64,000 bases of DNA from assembly GCA_003223645.1 (NCBI GenBank), contig QHVT01000005.1, forward strand, positions 496,001 through 560,000, given 5' to 3'. Positions 11,697-60,700 of this stretch are shown here, one piece after another. A program made the translations under genes and the position numbers. Positions within the stretch are counted from its first letter, which is position 1; each line of letters starts with the position of its first letter. This DNA comes from Acidobacteriota bacterium (lineage in GTDB: Bacteria; Acidobacteriota; Thermoanaerobaculia; Gp7-AA8). The notes beneath the pieces were generated by a model. That model did not search any database and was not told where the DNA came from. It saw only the letters and a list, made by a program, of their open reading frames with translations.

Positions 11697-11701
11697 CGTG
11701 T

Positions 11702-11805
11702 GTCATCCCGAGCGTGAGCGAGGGACCTGGGGTTCGGGTGGGGTGGCGATGAGCGGGCCTCGAAGCACACAGCCACCCAGGTCCCTCGCTCACGCTCGGG
11801 ATGAC
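11702..11805. repeat. Long palindromic element with perfect 29-bp arms (family B)
   Basis: Arms at 11702-11730 and 11777-11805 are exact reverse complements over 29 bp, beginning GTCATCCCGAGCGTGAGCG. The centre is 46 bp. It lies between the LytTR regulator and uvrA. A diverged relative with the same GTCATYCCGAG termini is at 24728-24826. Stretches like this are common as dispersed repeats in Acidobacteriota-type genomes. Confidence 0.85.
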
Positions 11806-11835
11806 AAGTCGCGTCTGAAACGTTCTCCCTTTGTT

Positions 11836-14662: not shown

Positions 14663-14721
14663 ATGCATTTCGGCGCCCGAAGCGGGCGCGGCTCCACATT
14701 CGAGCGAGAGGAGAGAACTTC

Positions 14722-21033: not shown

Positions 21034-21098
21034 TGGAGTGTGCACGCCTCTGGCGCGCCTCCCGCCCAAAAGGCGCGCCGGAGGCGCGCACCACTCCA
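21034..21098. repeat. Palindromic element (family C) upstream of the hypothetical membrane gene
   Basis: The left arm starts at 21034 (GGAGTGTGCACGCCTC) and the right arm runs 21071-21098 (AGGCGCGCCGGAGGCGCGCA onward). They pair imperfectly over about 26 bp around an 11-bp centre. The 28-bp right arm occurs again at 53910-53937 inside recF with no visible difference. Confidence 0.75.
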
Positions 21099-24727: not shown

Positions 24728-24826
24728 GTCATTCCGAGCCGCGAAGACGGCGAGGAATCCCCGGCAAATGCACGTGACTCGCTCCGTCGGCCGGGGATCC
24801 TTCGCCGTCTGCGCGACTCAGGATGA
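24728..24826. repeat. Palindromic element (family B) upstream of the exonuclease gene
   Basis: The left arm is 24728-24765 (GTCATTCCGAGCCGCGAAGA onward) and the right arm about 24789-24826 (ends CAGGATGAC). They pair imperfectly over 38 bp with a central spacer of about 23 bp. The end motif is shared with the 11702-11805 element. Confidence 0.8.
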
Positions 24827-24840
24827 CGCTTGAAGCTATC

Positions 24841-28978: not shown

Positions 28979-29299
28979 TCAACGAAACCGCTCGTCCGGC
29001 TCGCTGAGCAACTCCACGTCTTCCAGCGACGCGATTCCGCATCCGCCGTCGAGCAGGCGATAGCCGATGGCGACGCTGCCGTCTTCGATGCGCTCGGCCT
29101 GGATCACGATCACCGGCGTCGGCTCGCCGACGCCTTCTTCACGCACGATCGCGCAGGCGGGAAGATCGAGATCGACAGGCTCGCCGTCCACCGCGAAGAT
29201 CGCGCATCCGGCTTTCACATCGGCATCCGTTGCGGCGCGGCCTTCGACCGCCGGCGTCGCGCGCCACTTGGCCATCTCGATCGGATCTTCGATGCTCAC
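28979..29299 (-). CDS. Small acidic hypothetical protein following topA
   Basis: The product has 106 residues from a GTG at 29299 that overlaps the topA stop (GTGA), so it is translationally coupled to topA. It is acidic, with one likely beta-rich domain and two cysteines (ADVKAGCAIFAVDGEPVDLD and LLDGGCGIASLED). It lacks a signal peptide or membrane segment. I do not recognise a family. A longer in-frame start upstream of 29299 would run into the topA coding region in another frame and is rejected. Confidence 0.55.
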   Translation of the reverse strand: MSIEDPIEMAKWRATPAVEGRAATDADVKAGCAIFAVDGEPVDLDLPACAIVREEGVGEPTPVIVIQAERIEDGSVAIGYRLLDGGCGIASLEDVELLSEPDERFR

Positions 29300-31731
29300 T
29301 CGTTTGCGGCTGCTGCTGGCGCGATCGGCGCGCGGTAGTCGCACTCCGGGTTGTTGCAGTACTCGATCTGCCCTTCGCGCTTGGTTTCCTTCTCGAGGAG
29401 ATACGGCGCGTGGCATTTCGGACATTCACGCTGCACGGGGCGGTTGTTCAGCGTGAACTCGCATTTCGGATAGCGGTTGCACGAATAGAAGACGCCGCGG
29501 CGCGAGATGCGCTCGACGATCTCGCCTTCGCCGCACTTCGGGCACTTCACGCCGGTAGGCTTCGGAGGCGTCGTCTTGCGGCCGCCGATCTTGCGGATGG
29601 TCTTGCACTCCGGATAGCCGGAGCACGAGTAGAACGGGCCGTAGCGGCCGCTCTTGAGCACCATCTCTTTGCCGCAGTTCTCGCACGGCGGCTGCGGCTC
29701 GGACGGCAGATTCGCCGCCGCTTTCATCAGCTTCGGATCTTTCGTGTTCTTGCAGTCGGGATAGCCGGTACAGGCGAAGAACTGGCCGAAACGCGAGCGC
29801 TTGAGCGCCATCGGCTTGCCGCACTTGTCGCAGATGATCTGCTCGTCGTCCGACGTCGCTTCGGCAGCTGCGCCTTTCGCCATCTCCTTCGTCGTCTTGC
29901 ACTCGGGATAGTTGGAGCAGGCCAGGAACTCGCCGAAGCGGCCGAACTTGATCACCATCGGCGATCCGCAGGTTTCGCACTTTTCATCCGTCTCGACGCC
30001 GGTGCCTTTTACCGACGTCATCTCGGTCGCCGCGCGGCCGAGATCGACGTTGAACTTGAGGGAGAACTCCTTCATCAAGTCCTTCCACTCGCGCTTCCCG
30101 TCTTCGACTTCGTCGAGCTCTTCTTCGAGCCGCGCGGTATAGCCCTCGTCGATGATGTCGCCGAAAGATTGTTTGAGCAGCGTGATCACGAGCGTGCCGA
30201 GGTGCGTAGGAAGGAACTTACCGTCGTGCTTGTAGGTGTAGTCGCGGGCCTGGATCGTGGTGAGGATCTGGCCGTACGTCGACGGGCGCCCGATTCCGTT
30301 GTCTTCGAGCGCCTTCACGAGCGTCGCCTCGGTGTAGCGCGGCGGCGGCTGCGTGAAGTTCTGTTTCGTGTCGAGATTGATCAGCGAGAGCACGTCGCCT
30401 TCGTTCAGCGGCGGCAGCGCTTTCTCGTCAGGCTTTTCCTCGTCCTCGTCTTCGTCCGTATTCACGTCGCGGAAGACGGCCAGGAAGCCGGCGAACTTGA
30501 GCACTTCGCCCGAGGCACGAAGCGTAAGGTTGTTGACCGCGATGTCGGCGTCGGTGACGTCGAAGATCGCCGGCTTCATCTGGGACGCGACGAAGCGCTC
30601 CCAGATCAATTTGTAGATGTTGTACTCCTCGCGGGTGAGGAAGTCCTTGACCTTCTCGGGATCGAGGTCCATCGACGTCGGGCGGATGGCCTCGTGCGCT
30701 TCCTGCGCCTGTGCAGCTTTTTTGACACGATATACGTTCGGCTTTTCAGGCAGGATATCGTTGCCGTATTTCGCGGCGATATATTGTCTGACTTCGCCGA
30801 GGGCGTCGTCGCTGATGCGGACCGAGTCGGTGCGCATGTAGGTGATGAGACCGGCGAAGCCGAGGTTGCCGAGCTCCTTGCCTTCGTAGAGCTTTTGCGC
30901 GATCTGCATCGTGCGCTTCACCGGATACTTGAAACGGGCGTATCCGGTGCGCTGCAACGTCGAGGTGATGAACGGCGGCGCGGCGGACGACTTCTTTTCT
31001 TTGCGCGCGACTTCGCTGACGATGAACTTGCCGCTCTTCAGCGTCGCTTCGATCTTGCGCGCCAGCTCCTCGTTCGGGACCTCGGCCTTCTTGCCGTCGA
31101 TCTTCGACAGCTTCGCGACGAACTGCGGCGGCGTGCCGGCTTCGAGCTTCGCGGCGAACGACCAGTACTCGACCGGGACGAACGCTTTGATCTGTTCCTC
31201 GCGGTCGACGATCATCTTCATCGCCACCGACTGCACGCGTCCGGCGGAGAGGCCGCGGCGCACTTTGTCCCACAGGAGCGGCGAGAGTTTGTAGCCGACG
31301 AGACGGTCGAGCACGCGCCGGGCCTGCTGCGCGTTGACCTTGTTCATGTCGATCTCGCCGGGATGCTCGATCGCTTTTTTGACTGCGTTCTTGGTGATCT
31401 CGTGGAAGAGGATGCGGCGGACTTTCTTCGACTCGCCGCCGAGGAGGTTCATCACGTGCCAGCCGATCGCTTCTCCTTCGCGATCAGGGTCCGAGGCGAT
31501 GAAGATGGTGTCGGCTTTTTTTGCGGCGGCTTTGAGCTCGCTGACGACCTTCTCTTTGCCTTCGAGGATTTCGTACGTCGGCTCGAACGTCTCCTCGTTC
31601 ACCCCGAGCTCGCTTTTCGGCAAATCGCGGACGTGTCCGACCGACGCTTTGACGAGATAGTCGCTTCCGATGAACTTGTTGATCGTCTTCGCTTTCGCGG
31701 GAGACTCGACGATGACGAGGTTTTTGGCCAT
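29296..31731 (-). CDS. topA: DNA topoisomerase I
   Basis: The product has 811 residues. The TOPRIM domain opens AKNLVIVESPAKAKTINKFI, with acidic DxD at IASDPDREGEAIGW. The active-site Tyr is in GLITYMRTDSVRIS. After the catalytic core, five C4 zinc-ribbon repeats run to the C-terminus, the first four beginning CETCGSPM, CDKCGKPM, CENCGKEM and CPKCGEGE; the last reads CPKCHAP with CNNPEC. It relaxes negative supercoils. A short acidic linker (DEDEDEEKPDEK) interrupts the core near residues 425-436. The next gene is translationally coupled. It is the rightmost gene of a block transcribed toward the terminus side. Confidence 0.96.
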   Translation of the reverse strand: MAKNLVIVESPAKAKTINKFIGSDYLVKASVGHVRDLPKSELGVNEETFEPTYEILEGKEKVVSELKAAAKKADTIFIASDPDREGEAIGWHVMNLLGGESKKVRRILFHEITKNAVKKAIEHPGEIDMNKVNAQQARRVLDRLVGYKLSPLLWDKVRRGLSAGRVQSVAMKMIVDREEQIKAFVPVEYWSFAAKLEAGTPPQFVAKLSKIDGKKAEVPNEELARKIEATLKSGKFIVSEVARKEKKSSAAPPFITSTLQRTGYARFKYPVKRTMQIAQKLYEGKELGNLGFAGLITYMRTDSVRISDDALGEVRQYIAAKYGNDILPEKPNVYRVKKAAQAQEAHEAIRPTSMDLDPEKVKDFLTREEYNIYKLIWERFVASQMKPAIFDVTDADIAVNNLTLRASGEVLKFAGFLAVFRDVNTDEDEDEEKPDEKALPPLNEGDVLSLINLDTKQNFTQPPPRYTEATLVKALEDNGIGRPSTYGQILTTIQARDYTYKHDGKFLPTHLGTLVITLLKQSFGDIIDEGYTARLEEELDEVEDGKREWKDLMKEFSLKFNVDLGRAATEMTSVKGTGVETDEKCETCGSPMVIKFGRFGEFLACSNYPECKTTKEMAKGAAAEATSDDEQIICDKCGKPMALKRSRFGQFFACTGYPDCKNTKDPKLMKAAANLPSEPQPPCENCGKEMVLKSGRYGPFYSCSGYPECKTIRKIGGRKTTPPKPTGVKCPKCGEGEIVERISRRGVFYSCNRYPKCEFTLNNRPVQRECPKCHAPYLLEKETKREGQIEYCNNPECDYRAPIAPAAAANE

Positions 31732-31810: not shown

Positions 31811-31873
31811 AGTGGAGCGGCGCGCTCTTAGCGCGCCGGGATTTTCGGCGGGCTGAGAGCCCCGCGCTCCACT
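31811..31873. repeat. Palindromic element (family E) between topA and the NtrC-type regulator
   Basis: Arms of about 27 bp begin AGTGGAGCGGCGCGCTCTTA and end GCGCTCCACT; they pair imperfectly around a short central loop. The right arm overlaps the last bases of the regulator gene. A close relative lies in frame inside mnmE at 45893-45955. Confidence 0.75.
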
Positions 31874-33257
31874 ATTCTTCTTCGTCGTCGCCGTCGCCGT
31901 CGACTCCGGCGCTCTTGTATTTCTTCGTTTTGTTGTAGAGCGTCTTGTAGGAGATGCCGAGGATCTCGGCGGTGCGGCGGCGGTCGCCGTCGGTCATGTG
32001 CAGCGTTTCTTCAATGACGATGCGCTCGACTTCTTCCATCGGCTGGCCGAGCGGAATCGTGACGCTGTTCTTGGAGCGTTTGCGGCGATTGCCGGCGAGC
32101 TTGTCGGGGAGGCACTCGACGGTGAGCGTGTCGGTGCGCGCCATGATGAACGCGCGGTTGATCACGTTGCGCAGCTCGCGCACGTTGCCCTGCCACTCGT
32201 AGGCCTGCAGCGCCTCGATGAAGTCGGGGTCGATCTTGTCGACGTTCTTGTCCTCGGTCTCGTTCAGCTTCTGCAGGAAGAAGTGCGAAAAGAGCGGGAT
32301 GTCTTCGAGGCGCTCCCGCAGCGGCGGCACTTCGATGGGGAAGACGTTCAACCGGTAGTAGAGGTCCTCGCGCATCTTGCCGTCCTGGATCGCTTTCTGC
32401 GGATCGCGGTTAGAAGCGGCGATGATGCGCGCGTCGATGTTGATCTCGTCGTTGCCGCCGACGCGGCGGAACTTTCCTTCTTCGAGCACGCGCAGCAGTT
32501 TTACCTGCAGCTCGATCGGCATCTCGGTGATCTCGTCGAGAAACACCGTGCCGCCTTTGGCGAGCTCGAAGTAGCCTTCGCGGCGCTTGATCGCGTTCGT
32601 GAACGCGCCCTTCTCATGTCCGAAGATTTCGGACTCGATGAGCGTCGGCGAGATCGCACCGCAGTTGAAGGCGATGAACGGTTTGTTGCGTCTCCTGGAA
32701 AGCGAATGGATGGTGTTGGCGACGACTTCCTTGCCCGATCCCGACTCGCCGACGATGAAGACGTTGGCGTCGGTGTTCGCGACCATCTCGATCTCTTCGA
32801 AGAGCCGCTGCATCTTCGGCGACTTGCCGACGAGATGTCCGAGAGATCCCATCTTCTGCAGCTGGCGCCGCAGCTCGAGGATCTCCTGCTTCATCATCTG
32901 CTTGTCTTCGACCGACTTCAGAATGACTTGCAGGCGCGGGAGGTCCACCGGCTTGGTGACGTAATCCTCGGCGCCAACCTTCAGCGCTTTCACTGCCGAG
33001 TCGACAGTCGCATGACCGGTGAGGATCACGACCGGAATGTCGGGATAGGTTTCTTTGACGCGATGCAGGAGGTCGAGGCCGGAGCCGTCCGGCAGTTTGA
33101 GATCGACGATCGCGACATCGGGAACGAGCTTGTTGATCGAGTTCCAGCCAGCTTTCACCGTGTCGGCGACTTCCGGTTCGTAACCCCACTCCTCTACGAC
33201 GTCGGCCATTCCGGCACTGGTGGCACGATCATCATCAACGATCAGGACTCTTTTCAT
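31872..33257 (-). CDS. NtrC-family sigma54-dependent response regulator
   Basis: The product has 461 residues in three domains. The receiver domain (1-120) has the acidic cluster VDDD and phospho-Asp in AIVDLKLPDG. The AAA+ domain (~140-375) has Walker A GESGSGKE, Walker B TVFLDEITEMP, and Arg fingers in REDLYYRLNVFPIEVPPLRER. The Fis-type HTH ends RRTAEILGISYKTLYNKTKK. The sigma54-contact loop reads GAFTNA in place of the usual GAFTGA. It would activate sigma54 promoters on phosphorylation. The upstream overlapping gene is a degenerate kinase-like partner. Sigma54 itself is not in the window. The C-terminus is unusually acidic (GDGDDEEE). Confidence 0.92.
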   Translation of the reverse strand: MKRVLIVDDDRATSAGMADVVEEWGYEPEVADTVKAGWNSINKLVPDVAIVDLKLPDGSGLDLLHRVKETYPDIPVVILTGHATVDSAVKALKVGAEDYVTKPVDLPRLQVILKSVEDKQMMKQEILELRRQLQKMGSLGHLVGKSPKMQRLFEEIEMVANTDANVFIVGESGSGKEVVANTIHSLSRRRNKPFIAFNCGAISPTLIESEIFGHEKGAFTNAIKRREGYFELAKGGTVFLDEITEMPIELQVKLLRVLEEGKFRRVGGNDEINIDARIIAASNRDPQKAIQDGKMREDLYYRLNVFPIEVPPLRERLEDIPLFSHFFLQKLNETEDKNVDKIDPDFIEALQAYEWQGNVRELRNVINRAFIMARTDTLTVECLPDKLAGNRRKRSKNSVTIPLGQPMEEVERIVIEETLHMTDGDRRRTAEILGISYKTLYNKTKKYKSAGVDGDGDDEEE

Positions 33258-38901: not shown

Positions 38902-38918
38902 CGCGCCACCGCCTGTCC

Positions 38919-39004
38919 GGATGGCAGATGGCGGATGGCGGATGGCAGAAGCAATGCAGCTCGCCGTTGGTTCTTCCGCCATCTGCCATCTGCCATCTGC
39001 CATC
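38919..39004. repeat. Palindromic element (family F) between atpF and atpH
   Basis: Left arm at about 38919-38950 is a GGATGGCAGATGGCGGAT-type run; the right arm 38971-39004 is the complementary GCCATCTGCCATC run. Both are built of 7-bp GATGGCR units. It breaks the otherwise tight ATP operon. Related elements are at 50573-50618 and 60570-60700. Confidence 0.8.
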
Positions 39005-39031
39005 TCATGAACGCTGCGTTCTGCCATCCGG

Positions 39032-40206: not shown

Positions 40207-40761
40207 ATGAAAGAGAACTACCGAGCGATTCTCGACCGCGCCGACGAGCATTTCGCGTCGGTGATGCGCGAGCAGCCTCAGAACCTCCAGTGCGGGCGCG
40301 GCTGTTCGCTTTGCTGCTACGGCCTCTTCGAGATCGGGTCCGGCGACGTGCCGGTGATCGCGGAAGGACTCGAGCAACTGCATCCGATGCGGCGGAAGAA
40401 GATCATCCGCCGCGCGCTGGAGCTGCAGGCGCCGAATCTCCGCGAGTGTACGCCTGAGGAGAAGGAAGCGTTCTTCGAGCAGACGAAGTCGACGCCCTGT
40501 CCGCTGCTCGACGAGAGCGGCGCGTGCACGATGTACGAGCACCGCCCGCTGGTCTGCCGCACGTTCGGCCTGCCGCTGCGCGAGGGACGCAAGTACATCG
40601 GCGACATCTGCGAGCTGAATTTCACCGACTCCACACGCGCCGAGCGGACGTCGGCGGCGTGGGATCTCGAGTGGGAAGACGTGATCGGGCCGGAGGACGA
40701 GTTCACGATCCCGGAAGTGATCGTCCTCGTCAGCCGTCTTCGCGGCTGGATTGAGGATTGA
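40207..40761 (+). CDS. YkgJ-family cysteine-cluster protein
   Basis: The product has 184 residues. Cysteines are arranged as CGRGCSLCCYG at ~33-43, CPLLDESGACTMY and RPLVCRTFG, and a late ICELNF, the pattern of the CxxCxxCC zinc/iron-sulfur binding YkgJ family. The biochemical role of the family is not established. It is the only rightward gene in an otherwise leftward 21-kb block. Its stop codon lies inside a palindromic element (40755-40815). Confidence 0.85.
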   Translation: MKENYRAILDRADEHFASVMREQPQNLQCGRGCSLCCYGLFEIGSGDVPVIAEGLEQLHPMRRKKIIRRALELQAPNLRECTPEEKEAFFEQTKSTPCPLLDESGACTMYEHRPLVCRTFGLPLREGRKYIGDICELNFTDSTRAERTSAAWDLEWEDVIGPEDEFTIPEVIVLVSRLRGWIED

Positions 40762-40815
40762 GAATTGAGGATTGAGAAAGTTAGAACCACTTCCTCAACC
40801 CTCAATTCTCAATCC
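40755..40815. repeat. Palindromic element of GGATTGAGA units overlapping the YkgJ stop
   Basis: Left arm 40755-40777 (GGATTGAGAATTGAGGATTG) and right arm 40793-40815 (ends CTCAATTCTCAATCC) pair imperfectly over about 23 bp. It sits between convergent YkgJ and bactofilin genes. Confidence 0.7.
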
Positions 40816-43441: not shown

Positions 43442-43714
43442 GAGCCTCCAGGGCTCTCGGTCGAGCCTCCAGGGCTTACAGTTAAGCCTCCAGGGCTTAT
43501 GGTTAAGCCTCCAGGGCTTATGGTTAAGCCTCCAGGGCTTACGGTTAAGCCTCCAGGGCTTATGGTTAAGCCTCCAGGGCTTACGGTTAAGCCTCCAGGG
43601 CTTACGGTTAAGCCTCCAGGGCTTACGGTTAAGCCTCCAGGGCTTACGGTTAAGCCTCCAGGGCTTACGGTTAAGCCTCCAGGGCTTACGGACGAGCCTC
43701 CAGGGCTCTCGGTC
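43442..43714. repeat. Array of thirteen 21-bp hairpin units between mnmG and rsmG
   Basis: Thirteen consecutive 21-bp units tile the region with no spacers, plus a partial unit at 43715. Units 1 and 13 read GAGCCTCCAGGGCTCTCGGT; units 3-12 read AAGCCTCCAGGGCTTAYGGT with C/T variation. Each contains an inverted repeat: RAGCC, loop TCCAG, GGCTY. When the left arm starts GAGCC the right arm is GGCTC, and when it starts AAGCC the right arm is GGCTT, so pairing is kept; unit 2 mixes G and T, still a G-U wobble in RNA. On the minus strand each unit carries GGAGG. The mnmG stop lies in unit 12, and the rsmG start follows unit 1. Confidence 0.92.
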
Positions 43715-45575
43715 GAGCCTCCCGTCGCCGCAGATGCATTCGCAGAATCGCGACCGCGGCGGGCGTAACTCCAGGAATCCGCGACGCCTGCCCCAGTGAC
43801 ATCGGTTGCACGCGCGTGAGCTTCTCGACCATCTCGCGCGATAGGCCGGGGAGCGCGTACGACATCTGGCGCGGGATCGCGGCCTCGTCGTCGTTCTGCG
43901 CTTTCTCCGCCTCGCGCTGCTGGCGCTCGATGTAGCCGGCGTAGCGGAGACGACTGACGACGCCTTCCCTCTCCTCTTCCGTCAGCGCGCGAAACGCGTC
44001 CGCGAATTCGGGTTGTGCATTCGCCGCCGCTTCGGTGAGTCGGTCGATGTCGAGACTCGGCCGCTGCGTCAGCTTTGCGATCGTGGTCTGCGCGGTCAGC
44101 TCGATGCCGGCTTCACGCAGCCATGCGTTCGTTTCCCGATCGGGATACAGATCAGCCACGGCCGCGCCGGTCGCGCGCTGCATCCGCGCAAGACGCGCGT
44201 CGATACGGCGCTTGCGCTCGTCGTCGAGGATACCGAGGTGGTCGGCGACGGGAGAGAGCCGCTCGTAGACGGAGTCGCATCCGAGCAGGAGACGATGCTC
44301 CGCGCGCGAGGTGAACATGCGGTACGGCTCCTCGGTGCCGAGCGTGACGAGGTCGTCAATCATCACCGCGGCGTACGCCTGATCGCGGCGCAGCACGACC
44401 GGCTCCCCTCCGCGGACGTACTGCAGCGCGTTGATGCCGGCCACGAGTCCCTGCGCGGCCGCTTCTTCGTAGCCCGAAGTTCCGTTGATCTGGCCGGCGA
44501 GAAAGAGTCCTTCGACGCCGCGGGCCTGCAGCGTCGCGTCGAGCTGCTCGGGATTCACGAAGTCGTACTCGACCGCGTAGCCGTAGCGCGCAATCTTCGC
44601 GTACTCGAATCCAGGCAGCGAGCGGACAACCGCGTCCTGCACATCAGGCGGCAGCGAAGTCGAGATGCCGTTCATGTACAGCCACGGGTGCGCGAGGCCT
44701 TCCGGCTCGACGAAGACCTGATGCCGTTCCTTCTCCGCGAAACGGACGACCTTGTCTTCGATCGACGGACAGTAGCGCGGACCGGTCGCGTTGATTTGTC
44801 CCGAGTACATCGGTGCGCGATGAAGATTTGCACGGATCAGCTCGTGCGCATATGCGCTCGTGTATGTGAGCCAGCAGAGGATCTGCGGCTGCTCGAGGCG
44901 ATCGGTGAGAATCGAGAACGGACGCGGACGCGTGTCGCCGGGCGCTTCTTCGAGACGCGAGAAGTCGACCGTGGTCTTGTCGACGCGCGGCGGTGTTCCA
45001 GTCTTGAGGCGGCCGAGACGCAGACCGAATGCGCGCAGCGAATCGGAGAGCGTCTCCGCGGAAGACTCGCCGAAGCGGCCGCCGGTCGTCTTCACTTCTC
45101 CCGAATGCATGAGCGCGCGGAGAAACGTGCCGGTGGTGACGATGACGGCGCGGGCGTTGAGGCGCGTGCCGTCCTGCAGAGTCACGCCGTTGCGGTCGAG
45201 CGAAGTGACCGAGCCTTCGACGATGGTGAGGTTCGGTTCCGCGGCGAGAATGTCCTGCACGGCCTGCGCGTAAAGATCGCGGTCGCACTGGGCTCGCGGT
45301 CCCTGTACCGCCGGACCCTTCGAGCGGTTGAGCACCTTGAATTGAATGCCGGCATGATCGGTGGCTTCGCCCATCAGGCCGCCGAGGGCGTCGATTTCTT
45401 TGACGAGGTTGCCTTTGGCGAGACCACCGATCGCGGGATTGCACGACATGCGACCGATGGCATCGCGCAGCATCGTGACCATCGCCACGCGAGCGCCTCC
45501 GCGAGCGGCGACGCGCGCGGCCTCAGCCCCGGCGTGGCCGCCGCCGATGACGACGATGTCGAATGCGGTCTGCAT
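43686..45575 (-). CDS. mnmG: tRNA uridine-5-carboxymethylaminomethyl modification enzyme MnmG
   Basis: The product has 629 residues. FAD-binding is VIGGGHAGAEAARVA. Conserved segments include MSCNPAIGGLAKGNLVKEID and TGTFLRALMHSGE. With MnmE it forms the cmnm5U34 modification of several tRNAs. The last ~10 residues (EARPRALEARP) are encoded by units of the 21-bp array, so the normal C-terminus has been replaced or extended by repeat sequence. The start codon touches a parS site. Confidence 0.95.
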   Translation of the reverse strand: MQTAFDIVVIGGGHAGAEAARVAARGGARVAMVTMLRDAIGRMSCNPAIGGLAKGNLVKEIDALGGLMGEATDHAGIQFKVLNRSKGPAVQGPRAQCDRDLYAQAVQDILAAEPNLTIVEGSVTSLDRNGVTLQDGTRLNARAVIVTTGTFLRALMHSGEVKTTGGRFGESSAETLSDSLRAFGLRLGRLKTGTPPRVDKTTVDFSRLEEAPGDTRPRPFSILTDRLEQPQILCWLTYTSAYAHELIRANLHRAPMYSGQINATGPRYCPSIEDKVVRFAEKERHQVFVEPEGLAHPWLYMNGISTSLPPDVQDAVVRSLPGFEYAKIARYGYAVEYDFVNPEQLDATLQARGVEGLFLAGQINGTSGYEEAAAQGLVAGINALQYVRGGEPVVLRRDQAYAAVMIDDLVTLGTEEPYRMFTSRAEHRLLLGCDSVYERLSPVADHLGILDDERKRRIDARLARMQRATGAAVADLYPDRETNAWLREAGIELTAQTTIAKLTQRPSLDIDRLTEAAANAQPEFADAFRALTEEEREGVVSRLRYAGYIERQQREAEKAQNDDEAAIPRQMSYALPGLSREMVEKLTRVQPMSLGQASRIPGVTPAAVAILRMHLRRREARPRALEARP

Positions 45576-45590: not shown

Positions 45591-47024
45591 TCACTTGCCG
45601 ATACAAAACTTTCCAAAGATTTCCGACAGAACGTCTTCGCGGGTGATAGCGCCCGTGAGGACGCCGAGGGCGTTTGCGGCGCGGTAGAGGTCGACCACGA
45701 TCATCTGTTCGTCGAGGCCGCTTTCGATCGAGCTCAGCGCGGCCTCCAGGCCGGACTCGCATTCGGCGACGGCGACTCGCTGCCGCTCGTTCACCAGCGC
45801 GCCTTCCGGAGCAGCGAAGCGTTCGCGGACGAGGACGTCGAGGCGGCGCAGGAGCTCGTCGATGCCGTGGTCGGTGACGGCGCTGACAACGAGTGGAGCG
45901 GCGGGCTCTAGCCCGCCGTTTTCCGGGGCCGGCGGGCTAAAGTCCGCCGCTCCACCAGACACGACATCCGACTTTGTGTAGACAAGTAGCTCGTTTCCAT
46001 CAAGTACTTGTCGTTCGCGAGCATCTTCTTCCGTCAAGCCCGCGGTGGTATCCACTAAATACAGCACGATGTCCGCGCTGCGCGCTGCTTCGCGCGCGCG
46101 CTCGATACCGATGCCTTCGACGAGGTCGGCGCTTTCGCGGAGGCCGGCGGTGTCGGCGAGCGTGACGGGAAGGCCGCCGATCTCGATCGTCTCGCGCACG
46201 ATGTCGCGCGTCGTTCCGGGAATCGGCGTCACGATCGCGCGGTCGCTGCCGACGAGGCGGTTGAGCAGTGTCGACTTGCCGGCGTTCGGACGGCCGAGAA
46301 TCACCGCCGACAATCCCGCGCGCGTCGCACTTCCGCGGCGATACGTTTCCGCGAGCGTGTGCGCGTCGCGCAGCGCACCTTCGATTCGCGCGCGCGCTTC
46401 GTCGCGCGCGATGAACTCATAGCCTTCTTCCGAAAAATCGAGCGCGGCTTCGAGTCGCGAGATCACTTCGAGCAGCGTCTGCCGGATCGCTGTCGCCTTG
46501 CGGCTCAGCACTCCCTCGAGATTCGAGAGCGACAGCTTCGCCTGCAGCGCGGTGCGCGCGTTGATCAAATCCGCGATCGACTCCGCCTGCACGAGATCCA
46601 TCTTGCCGTTGAGCACCGCGCGCTCGGTGAACTCGCCCGGCTCGGCCATCCGCGCGCCCAACGCGACGCATGCGGCGATGAGGCGCTCGACGAGCAACGG
46701 GTTGCCGTGCAGCGTGAGCTCGATGAGATCGTTGCCGGTGAATGAATGCGGCGCCTCGTAGCGAATGGCGATGCATTCGTCGAACAGCTCGTTGTCGACA
46801 AACAGCTGCGTGAGTGCGGCGTTGCGCGGCGCCGGTGCGGCGCTGCGCGAGAGCGACATCAGGATGCCGATTGCGAGCGGCCCGTCGAGACGGATGATGG
46901 CCAGCGCGCTGCGCGCCGTGGGCGTCGCCGGGGCGACAATCGTGTCGAACGCGCTTGGAGCGGAGGGCGAAGGGCGGAGGTCAGAGGGCGGTTGCGGGTG
47001 GGATTGCCCTCTGCCCTCTGCCAT
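45591..47024 (-). CDS. mnmE: tRNA modification GTPase MnmE
   Basis: The product has 477 residues. The N-terminal folate-binding domain begins FDTIVAPATPTARSALAIIR. The G domain has G1 GRPNAGKSTLLN, G2 TPIPGTTRDIV, G3 DTAG and G4 TKSD; the C-terminus ends with CIGK. It works with MnmG. Two palindromic elements invade it: the start codon and first ~25 residues derive from the 46957-47033 element, and another is in frame between G4 and G5 (translated ADFSPPAPENGGLEPAAP). No other start codon lies nearer to the conserved domain, so translation must begin within the element. Confidence 0.93.
   Translation of the reverse strand: MAEGRGQSHPQPPSDLRPSPSAPSAFDTIVAPATPTARSALAIIRLDGPLAIGILMSLSRSAAPAPRNAALTQLFVDNELFDECIAIRYEAPHSFTGNDLIELTLHGNPLLVERLIAACVALGARMAEPGEFTERAVLNGKMDLVQAESIADLINARTALQAKLSLSNLEGVLSRKATAIRQTLLEVISRLEAALDFSEEGYEFIARDEARARIEGALRDAHTLAETYRRGSATRAGLSAVILGRPNAGKSTLLNRLVGSDRAIVTPIPGTTRDIVRETIEIGGLPVTLADTAGLRESADLVEGIGIERAREAARSADIVLYLVDTTAGLTEEDARERQVLDGNELLVYTKSDVVSGGAADFSPPAPENGGLEPAAPLVVSAVTDHGIDELLRRLDVLVRERFAAPEGALVNERQRVAVAECESGLEAALSSIESGLDEQMIVVDLYRAANALGVLTGAITREDVLSEIFGKFCIGK
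45893..45955. repeat. Palindromic element (family E) in frame inside mnmE
   Basis: Arms 45893-45917 and 45931-45955 pair with two mismatches in 25 bp (GTGGAGCGGCGGGCTCTAGC onward). It is translated without frame shift into a Pro/Glu/Asn/Gly-rich loop between the GTPase G4 and G5 motifs. It resembles the element at 31811-31873. Confidence 0.85.
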
Positions 47025-50422: not shown

Positions 50423-50770
50423 TTGCTAACCCTCTGAAAAGAAAGCGGTGAGTATAGAAGGCAGAGGACAGGTGGTCAACGGCGGTCCTCCGGCCGTGCG
50501 CGCAAACGCCCTTGAGAGAGGGGGAAATTCCAGATGGTAGATGGCGGAGGGCGGAGCGCGAAACAGATGAAGGATGGCAGACTGCGGATGGCAAAACCGC
50601 CATCTGCCATCTGCCATCCTCCATCGAAAACCTCTGCGATCTGCCATCCAAAAAAGTACCTTCCCCACCTGCCTTGTTGGTGCTAGACTCGCTCCCCCCT
50701 GAAAAGGCTCCAGAATTTCCACAACTGTGGAAAAGCTGTGGATTCTCAAGGAGATAGCCCGCTTCCCCTC
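50423..50770. other. oriC: Origin-proximal intergenic region (oriC candidate, left part)
   Basis: This 348-bp region between divergent rpmH and dnaA holds a GATGGCR-family palindrome (50573-50618) and a cluster of DnaA-box-like sites: ATTTCCACA at 50715-50723, TTTTCCACA on the minus strand at 50726-50734 and GAATCCACA on the minus strand at 50737-50745. The strand switch at this point is typical of oriC. A ribosome-binding-like AAGGAG lies at 50748-50753, but it is 16 bp from the dnaA ATG. Confidence 0.75.
50573..50618. repeat. Palindromic element (family F) in the oriC region
   Basis: Left arm GATGGCAGACTGCGGATGGC (50573-50592) and right arm GCCATCTGCCATCTGCCATC (50599-50618), 20 bp each, pair imperfectly around a 6-bp loop. 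Flanking related GATGG and CCATC tracts extend it to about 50532-50651. Confidence 0.8.
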
Positions 50771-60529: not shown

Positions 60530-60569
60530 TGCAACGCACGCTTTAGTGCATGCGACATGCCGGGAGAAC

Positions 60570-60700
60570 GATGGCAGATGGCGGATGGCAGATGGCGGAT
60601 GGCAGATGGCGAAGAACCGAGTTATGCCTTCATCCGCCATCCGCCATCCGCCATCCGCCATCCGCCATCCGCCATCCGCCATCCGCCATCCGCCATCCGT
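60570..60700. repeat. Palindromic element with nine CCGCCAT heptamers next to rng
   Basis: Left arm 60570-60610 is a GATGGCRGATGGC run; the right arm contains nine tandem CCGCCAT units (60634-60696) preceded by CAT. The end of the element is 2 bases before the rng stop (60703-60705). It belongs to the same family as 38919-39004 and 50573-50618. Confidence 0.85.

Follow-up and report, generated by a model that had tools for sequence, protein, structure and literature searches.

A REPIN in frame in the GTPase domain of MnmE, and its relatives inside and outside the genes of an acidobacterial genome

The mnmE gene described here carries, between the G4 and G5 motifs of its GTPase domain, a 63-bp palindrome that keeps the reading frame and that is a REPIN, an element of a known mobile bacterial kind. 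We hold with considerable confidence that the best explanation is a REPIN population spread by a REP-associated tyrosine transposase and tolerated in loops and linkers, the MnmE copy included. The element lies in a 64-kb stretch of DNA, which we call the window. Its source is a genome (G000) of 6.38 Mb in 51 contigs, 96.67% complete.

The palindrome occupies window positions 45893-45955, with arms at 45893-45918 and 45930-45955 (26 nt each, 92% complementary) separated by an 11-nt spacer, and consists of two REPs in opposite orientation. Both its coordinates and its in-frame position between G4 (TKSD) and G5 (SAVTDHG) had been read correctly from the letters. Pfam and two NCBIfam equivalogs above cut-off identify the host ORF as MnmE. 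Its translation runs TKSDVVS-GGAADFSPPAPENGGLEPAAP-LVVSAVTDHG, the element supplying 21 residues, many of them Gly, Ala or Pro. Two of the six frames of the element are open. Folded as single-stranded DNA, its + strand reaches -31.5 kcal/mol, whereas shuffles average -14.8 (z -7.8) and none of 200 does as well. The gene is intact and, among the matches listed in its own genome, is the single full-length copy, the five further MnmE matches being either partial or outside the list. The features of the window that matter to the argument are:

45893..45955, no strand: REPIN of two inverted REPs, translated in frame in mnmE as GGAADFSPPAPENGGLEPAAP.
45893..45918, + strand: REP 1, with GTGG tag, AG, 9-bp stem (CGGCGGGCT/AGCCCGCCG) and 2-nt loop; matches the GGGCT-subtype pattern without mismatch.
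45930..45955, - strand: REP 2, inverted, with one stem mismatch (GGACT for GGGCT); matches the pattern without mismatch, the pattern having N at that base.
45591..47024, - strand: mnmE, 477 aa, host gene of the element; two MnmE equivalogs above cut-off.
31812..31872, no strand: diverged intergenic REPIN, left tag as in the MnmE element; begins on the stop codon of the adjoining gene, presumably a regulator.
14671..14697, - strand: single degenerate REP, GTGGAGCCGCGCCCGCTTCGGGCGCCG, the third REP site in the window.

The intergenic REPIN had been proposed as a relative of the MnmE element at 31811-31873, outside genes. Its position outside genes stands; the core is slightly narrower (31812-31872) and the right-hand tag has diverged. 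The kinship is also upheld, as the two elements align with a score of 28, whereas 500 palindrome-preserving shuffles give a mean of 0.58 (sd 4.35) and never exceed 13. As single-stranded DNA, the stretch 31811-31873 folds with z -5.7 on the + strand and -4.8 on the - strand relative to shuffles. The first base of the tag is the final base of the stop codon in gene 31872-33257 (-), which from the look of its translation we take to be an NtrC-type regulator, and the element lies upstream of gene 29296-31731 (-), presumably, on the same grounds, topoisomerase I.

Repeats of other types also occur in the window. A minisatellite at 43443-43722 (21-bp unit, 13.3 copies, 93% matches) spans the 3' end of ORF 43686-45575 (-), which by look and position we take to be mnmG, and extends beyond it. 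Arrays of 7-bp units (GAAGGCA, GATGGCA, GGATTGA and similar), mostly inverted pairs, lie at 2241-2343, 38918-39005, 40748-40815, 50566-50653 and 60557-60699. Palindromes of another type, at 11701-11806 and 24728-24827, start with TGTCATCC and GTCATTCC, the first having perfect 31-nt arms. Finally, a GC-rich inverted repeat at 21040-21091 (21-nt arms, 90%, with CACTCC nearby) is perhaps a further REP-like type.

Across the genome, the pattern GTGGAGCGGCG-N20-50-CGCCGCTCCAC finds 177 exact-tagged inverted pairs (164 with a stricter pair pattern), and the reversed-pattern control finds 0. In most of the pairs listed the stems are GGCCGC or GCCCGC around a central TCTCGCGA-like spacer, and this main family has the layout GTGG, AG, 9-bp stem and 3-nt loop. 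The MnmE element, with its 2-nt loop, belongs to a GGGCT subtype that has 13 exact single-REP matches in the genome, two of which are its own arms; the 11-base tag, GTGGAGCGGCG, is common to both subtypes. Family and MnmE element alike agree in guide, stem and loop with the GT[AG]G REP rule, given in the passages of PMC6006769 on REP structure as a hairpin (7-20-bp stem, 2-5-nt loop) that a GTAG or GTGG guide precedes at a distance of 0-2 nt. Inverted pairing and high copy number are likewise present. Given its GTGG tag, the family lies outside the GTAG superfamily in the strict sense that PMC3733652 gives the term where it describes it, and also outside the CGTC superfamily. All six frames are open in 117 of 129 examined pairs (25-28% in shuffles), a count that amounts almost to one observation because the copies are related. 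At one place (L136:1995-2591), four REPINs stand in tandem at 175-bp spacing.

The whole genome contains one Y1_Tnp match. The protein is a REP-associated tyrosine transposase (NF047646, the REP_Tyr_transpos equivalog, 103.5 bits against a cut-off of 80), and its translation has HVH, Y-IFN-NP and WQ motifs, which the class descriptions in PMC6006769 assign to class 2. By count rather than by alignment, the residues at the relevant offsets from the W of WQ are D and R; at these positions the same descriptions place a D, and in some cases an R, in subclasses 2.5 and 2.7. The protein also has the counterpart of R104. Same-tag REPINs surround the gene, with one upstream, one over the 3' end and two downstream. 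Searched for in named genomes, relatives of the transposase amounted to one locus, 49% identical, from an Acidobacteria MAG. The REPIN over the 3' end (L001:1879-1948) gives the transposase ORF an in-frame C-terminal tail, VERRPLRAPGSRDKSAAEAAAAPQ.

The REPs adjoining the transposase share the 11-base tag of the MnmE element and differ from it in stem, being of the GGCCGC/GCCCGC subtypes and not of GGGCT. For this reason, we would assign to the RAYT/TnpA-REP system the tagged family and not the GGGCT subtype. The GGGCT subtype may owe its spread to a different transposase, perhaps one that no longer exists in the genome.

Three of 30 genomes (own included) contain exact-tagged pairs, with 177 in G000, 15 in G008 and 2 in G015. 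G008 and G015 represent two other genera of the same taxonomic family, and both carry the GGGCT subtype. Exact-tagged pairs are absent from the other 27, the congener G001 included, under a pattern that diverged tags would escape. Y1_Tnp matches were found in 24 of the 30 genomes and not in G001. The best-scoring Y1_Tnp locus in G008 (one of 2 matches) and in G015 (one of 6) has no 9-bp REP hairpins in its flanks.

These observations bear on whether the hairpins spread without the present transposase, either by recombination or replication slippage among themselves or through another transposase now lost. The subtype difference between MnmE element and transposase flanks would be expected under such a history, as would the bare flanks of the best Y1_Tnp genes in G008 and G015, and it would also accommodate certain host linkers that look replaced, not lengthened. 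The tag common to both subtypes speaks against it, and in the congener exact-tagged pairs and Y1_Tnp match are both missing; we regard spread without this transposase as unlikely.

At the MnmE site itself, relatives supply the comparison. A search of 60 genomes (own included) yielded 30 loci, 29 of them from relatives. All 17 readable orthologues of the same family and order lack the insert (18 in total, G008 having N there). Counted by hand between the Asp of G4 and the Ser of G5, the loop has 27 residues here, 9-12 in the 17 readable relatives and 10 in G001. The 11 more distant orthologues have other loop lengths, and by eye none contains such a peptide. The insert is thus not a general property of MnmE, in line with the sequence-only reading. 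Three solved MnmEs (1xzp, 3geh and 3gee) have 21-23 residues in that loop, again by hand count, so the G4-G5 site tolerates length change. The MnmE of G008 seemed to be broken in exactly this loop; what interrupts it is a stretch of N in the assembled sequence and not a REPIN.

The gene context of other copies was assessed on 96 stretches of the genome covering 129 distinct pairs of the 177. These were chosen by contig order, arm sequence or earlier REP hits, not by gene context, and the MnmE copy, being the starting point, is outside the 129. A home-made codon-usage test on 210-nt flanks called 28 pairs in frame, 8 shifted on the same strand, 2 opposed, 49 one-sided and 42 neither. As a control, 3000 places were drawn at random, of which 58.7% were called in frame and 4.3% shifted. 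REPINs thus avoid genes (22% in frame against 58.7%, p 1e-17), and by the same comparison they lie mostly outside genes, as is characteristic of REPINs. We read the one-sided and neither calls as intergenic or gene-edge, which goes beyond what the test proves. Among the shifted calls, the upstream gene stops just before the element in one, reads through to a stop 8-31 nt past its end in six and continues for 255 nt in one; these look mostly like elements between close genes, not broken genes.

A copy in TrpF that the codon-usage test missed was found via Pfam, which brings the in-frame copies to 29. Another candidate (L114) failed the test and was left out of the count. Of the 29 host ORFs, 20 have a Pfam match above cut-off, 2 a weaker one and 7 none. 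The match spans the insert in five (TrpF, an alpha/beta hydrolase, an AMP-binding enzyme, a GT9 glycosyltransferase and a GntR-aminotransferase protein). In others the insert lies between or beside domains, among them ETF-alpha, an ABC-F protein, a Wzt-like ABC protein, an EgtB/OvoA-like enzyme (below equivalog cut-offs) and a binding-protein-permease fusion. In G008 and G015 together, 4 of the 9 pairs examined (of 17) are in frame, on our own reading of the codon-usage test with the G000 codon table. NCBIfam identifies two of the hosts, CarB and PheT, above cut-off. The other two score above cut-off in Pfam: a 2-oxoacid dehydrogenase E2, whose best NCBIfam match falls just short, and a beta-lactamase-fold protein. 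A Pfam match spans the insert in CarB and in the beta-lactamase-fold protein.

The proposal, made from sequence alone, of a mobile family found both between and within genes is supported by the 177 pairs against a control of 0, the flanked transposase, the 17 empty MnmE sites and the 28 of 129 copies in frame. We infer that the REPINs moved and that this transposase was the enzyme. A RAYT/TnpA-REP, an HUH-class enzyme acting on single strands, would recognize the REP hairpin and its guide on exposed single-stranded DNA and would place REPIN copies at pyrimidine-rich sites. In a base-by-base profile, the flanks before GTGG prefer C, C/T and T/A (C-Y-W). According to the cleavage assays presented in PMC8266576, a guide changed to GTGG leads to cleavage at CC, and a GTGG substrate is also cleaved at CA, less efficiently. 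The flank preference, judged from base composition, would fit such guide-directed cleavage. Insertions into genes would mostly be purged, and those keeping the frame in loops or inter-domain linkers would survive. Such copies presumably do little harm. The MnmE copy would have landed in the G4-G5 loop, which varies in length, most likely once the lineage had parted from the congener, and its 21 extra residues are probably tolerated by the GTPase as a surface loop, in an enzyme that presumably still works.

The in-frame copies are not evenly distributed over reading phases. Twenty of the 29 enter as xGAA.., 6 as VERR.. and 3 as LWSG.. (chi-square 17.0, p 2e-4), the commonest phase being the one that gives a small-residue peptide and the one in which the MnmE copy is also read. 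This bias could come from a target-sequence preference, not from selection. Element lengths modulo 3 are 1 in 14 copies, 2 in 10 and 0 in 5; the in-frame copies therefore must vary in their junctions or spacers. For 5 host genes of 30 (the 29 and MnmE), lengths were compared with relatives by hand count, the elements themselves amounting to 21-24 residues. The excess length in the region of the insert is 17 residues for MnmE (vs G001), 11-16 for TrpF (vs G010 and G001), 1 for ETF-alpha (vs G003), and 2 for the ABC-F protein and 25 for the hydrolase (both vs G001). Judged by these lengths, some sites look like replacement of a native linker (ETF-alpha and ABC-F; partly TrpF and MnmE) and the hydrolase looks like plain insertion.

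A bolder reading is that the REPIN population provides proteins throughout the genome with ready-made linkers, selection having shaped a mobile hairpin to be tolerable in proteins. It suggests itself because the main family is stop-free in six frames, the small-residue phase is favoured and several sites replace a native linker of similar length. The in-frame share, however, is far below random, the MnmE element has only 2 of 6 frames open and the hydrolase gained 25 residues with no replacement, and we think this reading improbable.

Alternatively, the insert could have been co-opted in MnmE, its longer loop altering the activity of the enzyme or a partner contact and being kept by selection. 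An intact mnmE that is the sole full-length match listed in the genome would suit this, and the solved MnmEs with 21-23-residue loops make a long loop compatible with the enzyme. The same type of peptide nevertheless recurs in unrelated proteins, pointing to a tolerated mobile insert rather than an MnmE-specific role, and we give co-option very little weight. That the palindrome arose by chance in an ordinary GC-rich linker, in a window of 63% GC and a loop of varying length, can be dismissed in view of its folding (z -7.8, none of 200 shuffles as good) and the 13 exact REP-type matches that include both its arms, and is refuted by copy number (177 pairs, control 0).

The family stands closest to REPINs and RAYT/TnpA-REP systems ('REPtrons'), with which it shares the inverted REP pair, the GT[AG]G guide, a transposase gene flanked by the same tag and high copy number, going by the descriptions in PMC3116915, PMC6006769 and PMC8266576. 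Unlike the extragenic copies that are the subject of the analyses in PMC3116915, 28 of 129 examined copies are here in frame in genes. In-frame REPs have already been published: the sections of PMC3733652 (2013) on intragenic GTAG and CGTC REPs describe REP dimers in ORFs, encoding 20-30 residues, which they regard as tolerable in loops and linkers and which are most numerous in O. terrae and R. conorii and with tRNA pseudouridine synthases among their genes. The present case differs from what those sections report in its GTGG tag, its host genome and hosts that include MnmE, TrpF, ETF-alpha, CarB and PheT, although shared hosts are possible. The Rickettsia palindromic elements (RPEs), also already published, resemble it in being palindromic repeats that have become in-frame parts of conserved proteins. 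In the account of them in PMC2229807, RPEs are Rickettsia-specific and 105-146 bp long, and that account describes no GTGG-tagged REP pair; at 63 bp, and in a genome of 6.38 Mb where that of R. japonica has 1.28 Mb, the MnmE element falls outside them. In literature on REPIN/RAYT with coding sequences or Acidobacteria/Acidobacteriota, no title among the matches listed concerns the present family.

The present genome extends this range, since a sizeable part of its REPINs stands in translated frames and relatives offer empty sites for comparison. It opens the questions of how a mobile hairpin can come to lie in a conserved enzyme and leave it working, whether selection acts on phase or loop position, and whether such inserts may gain function.
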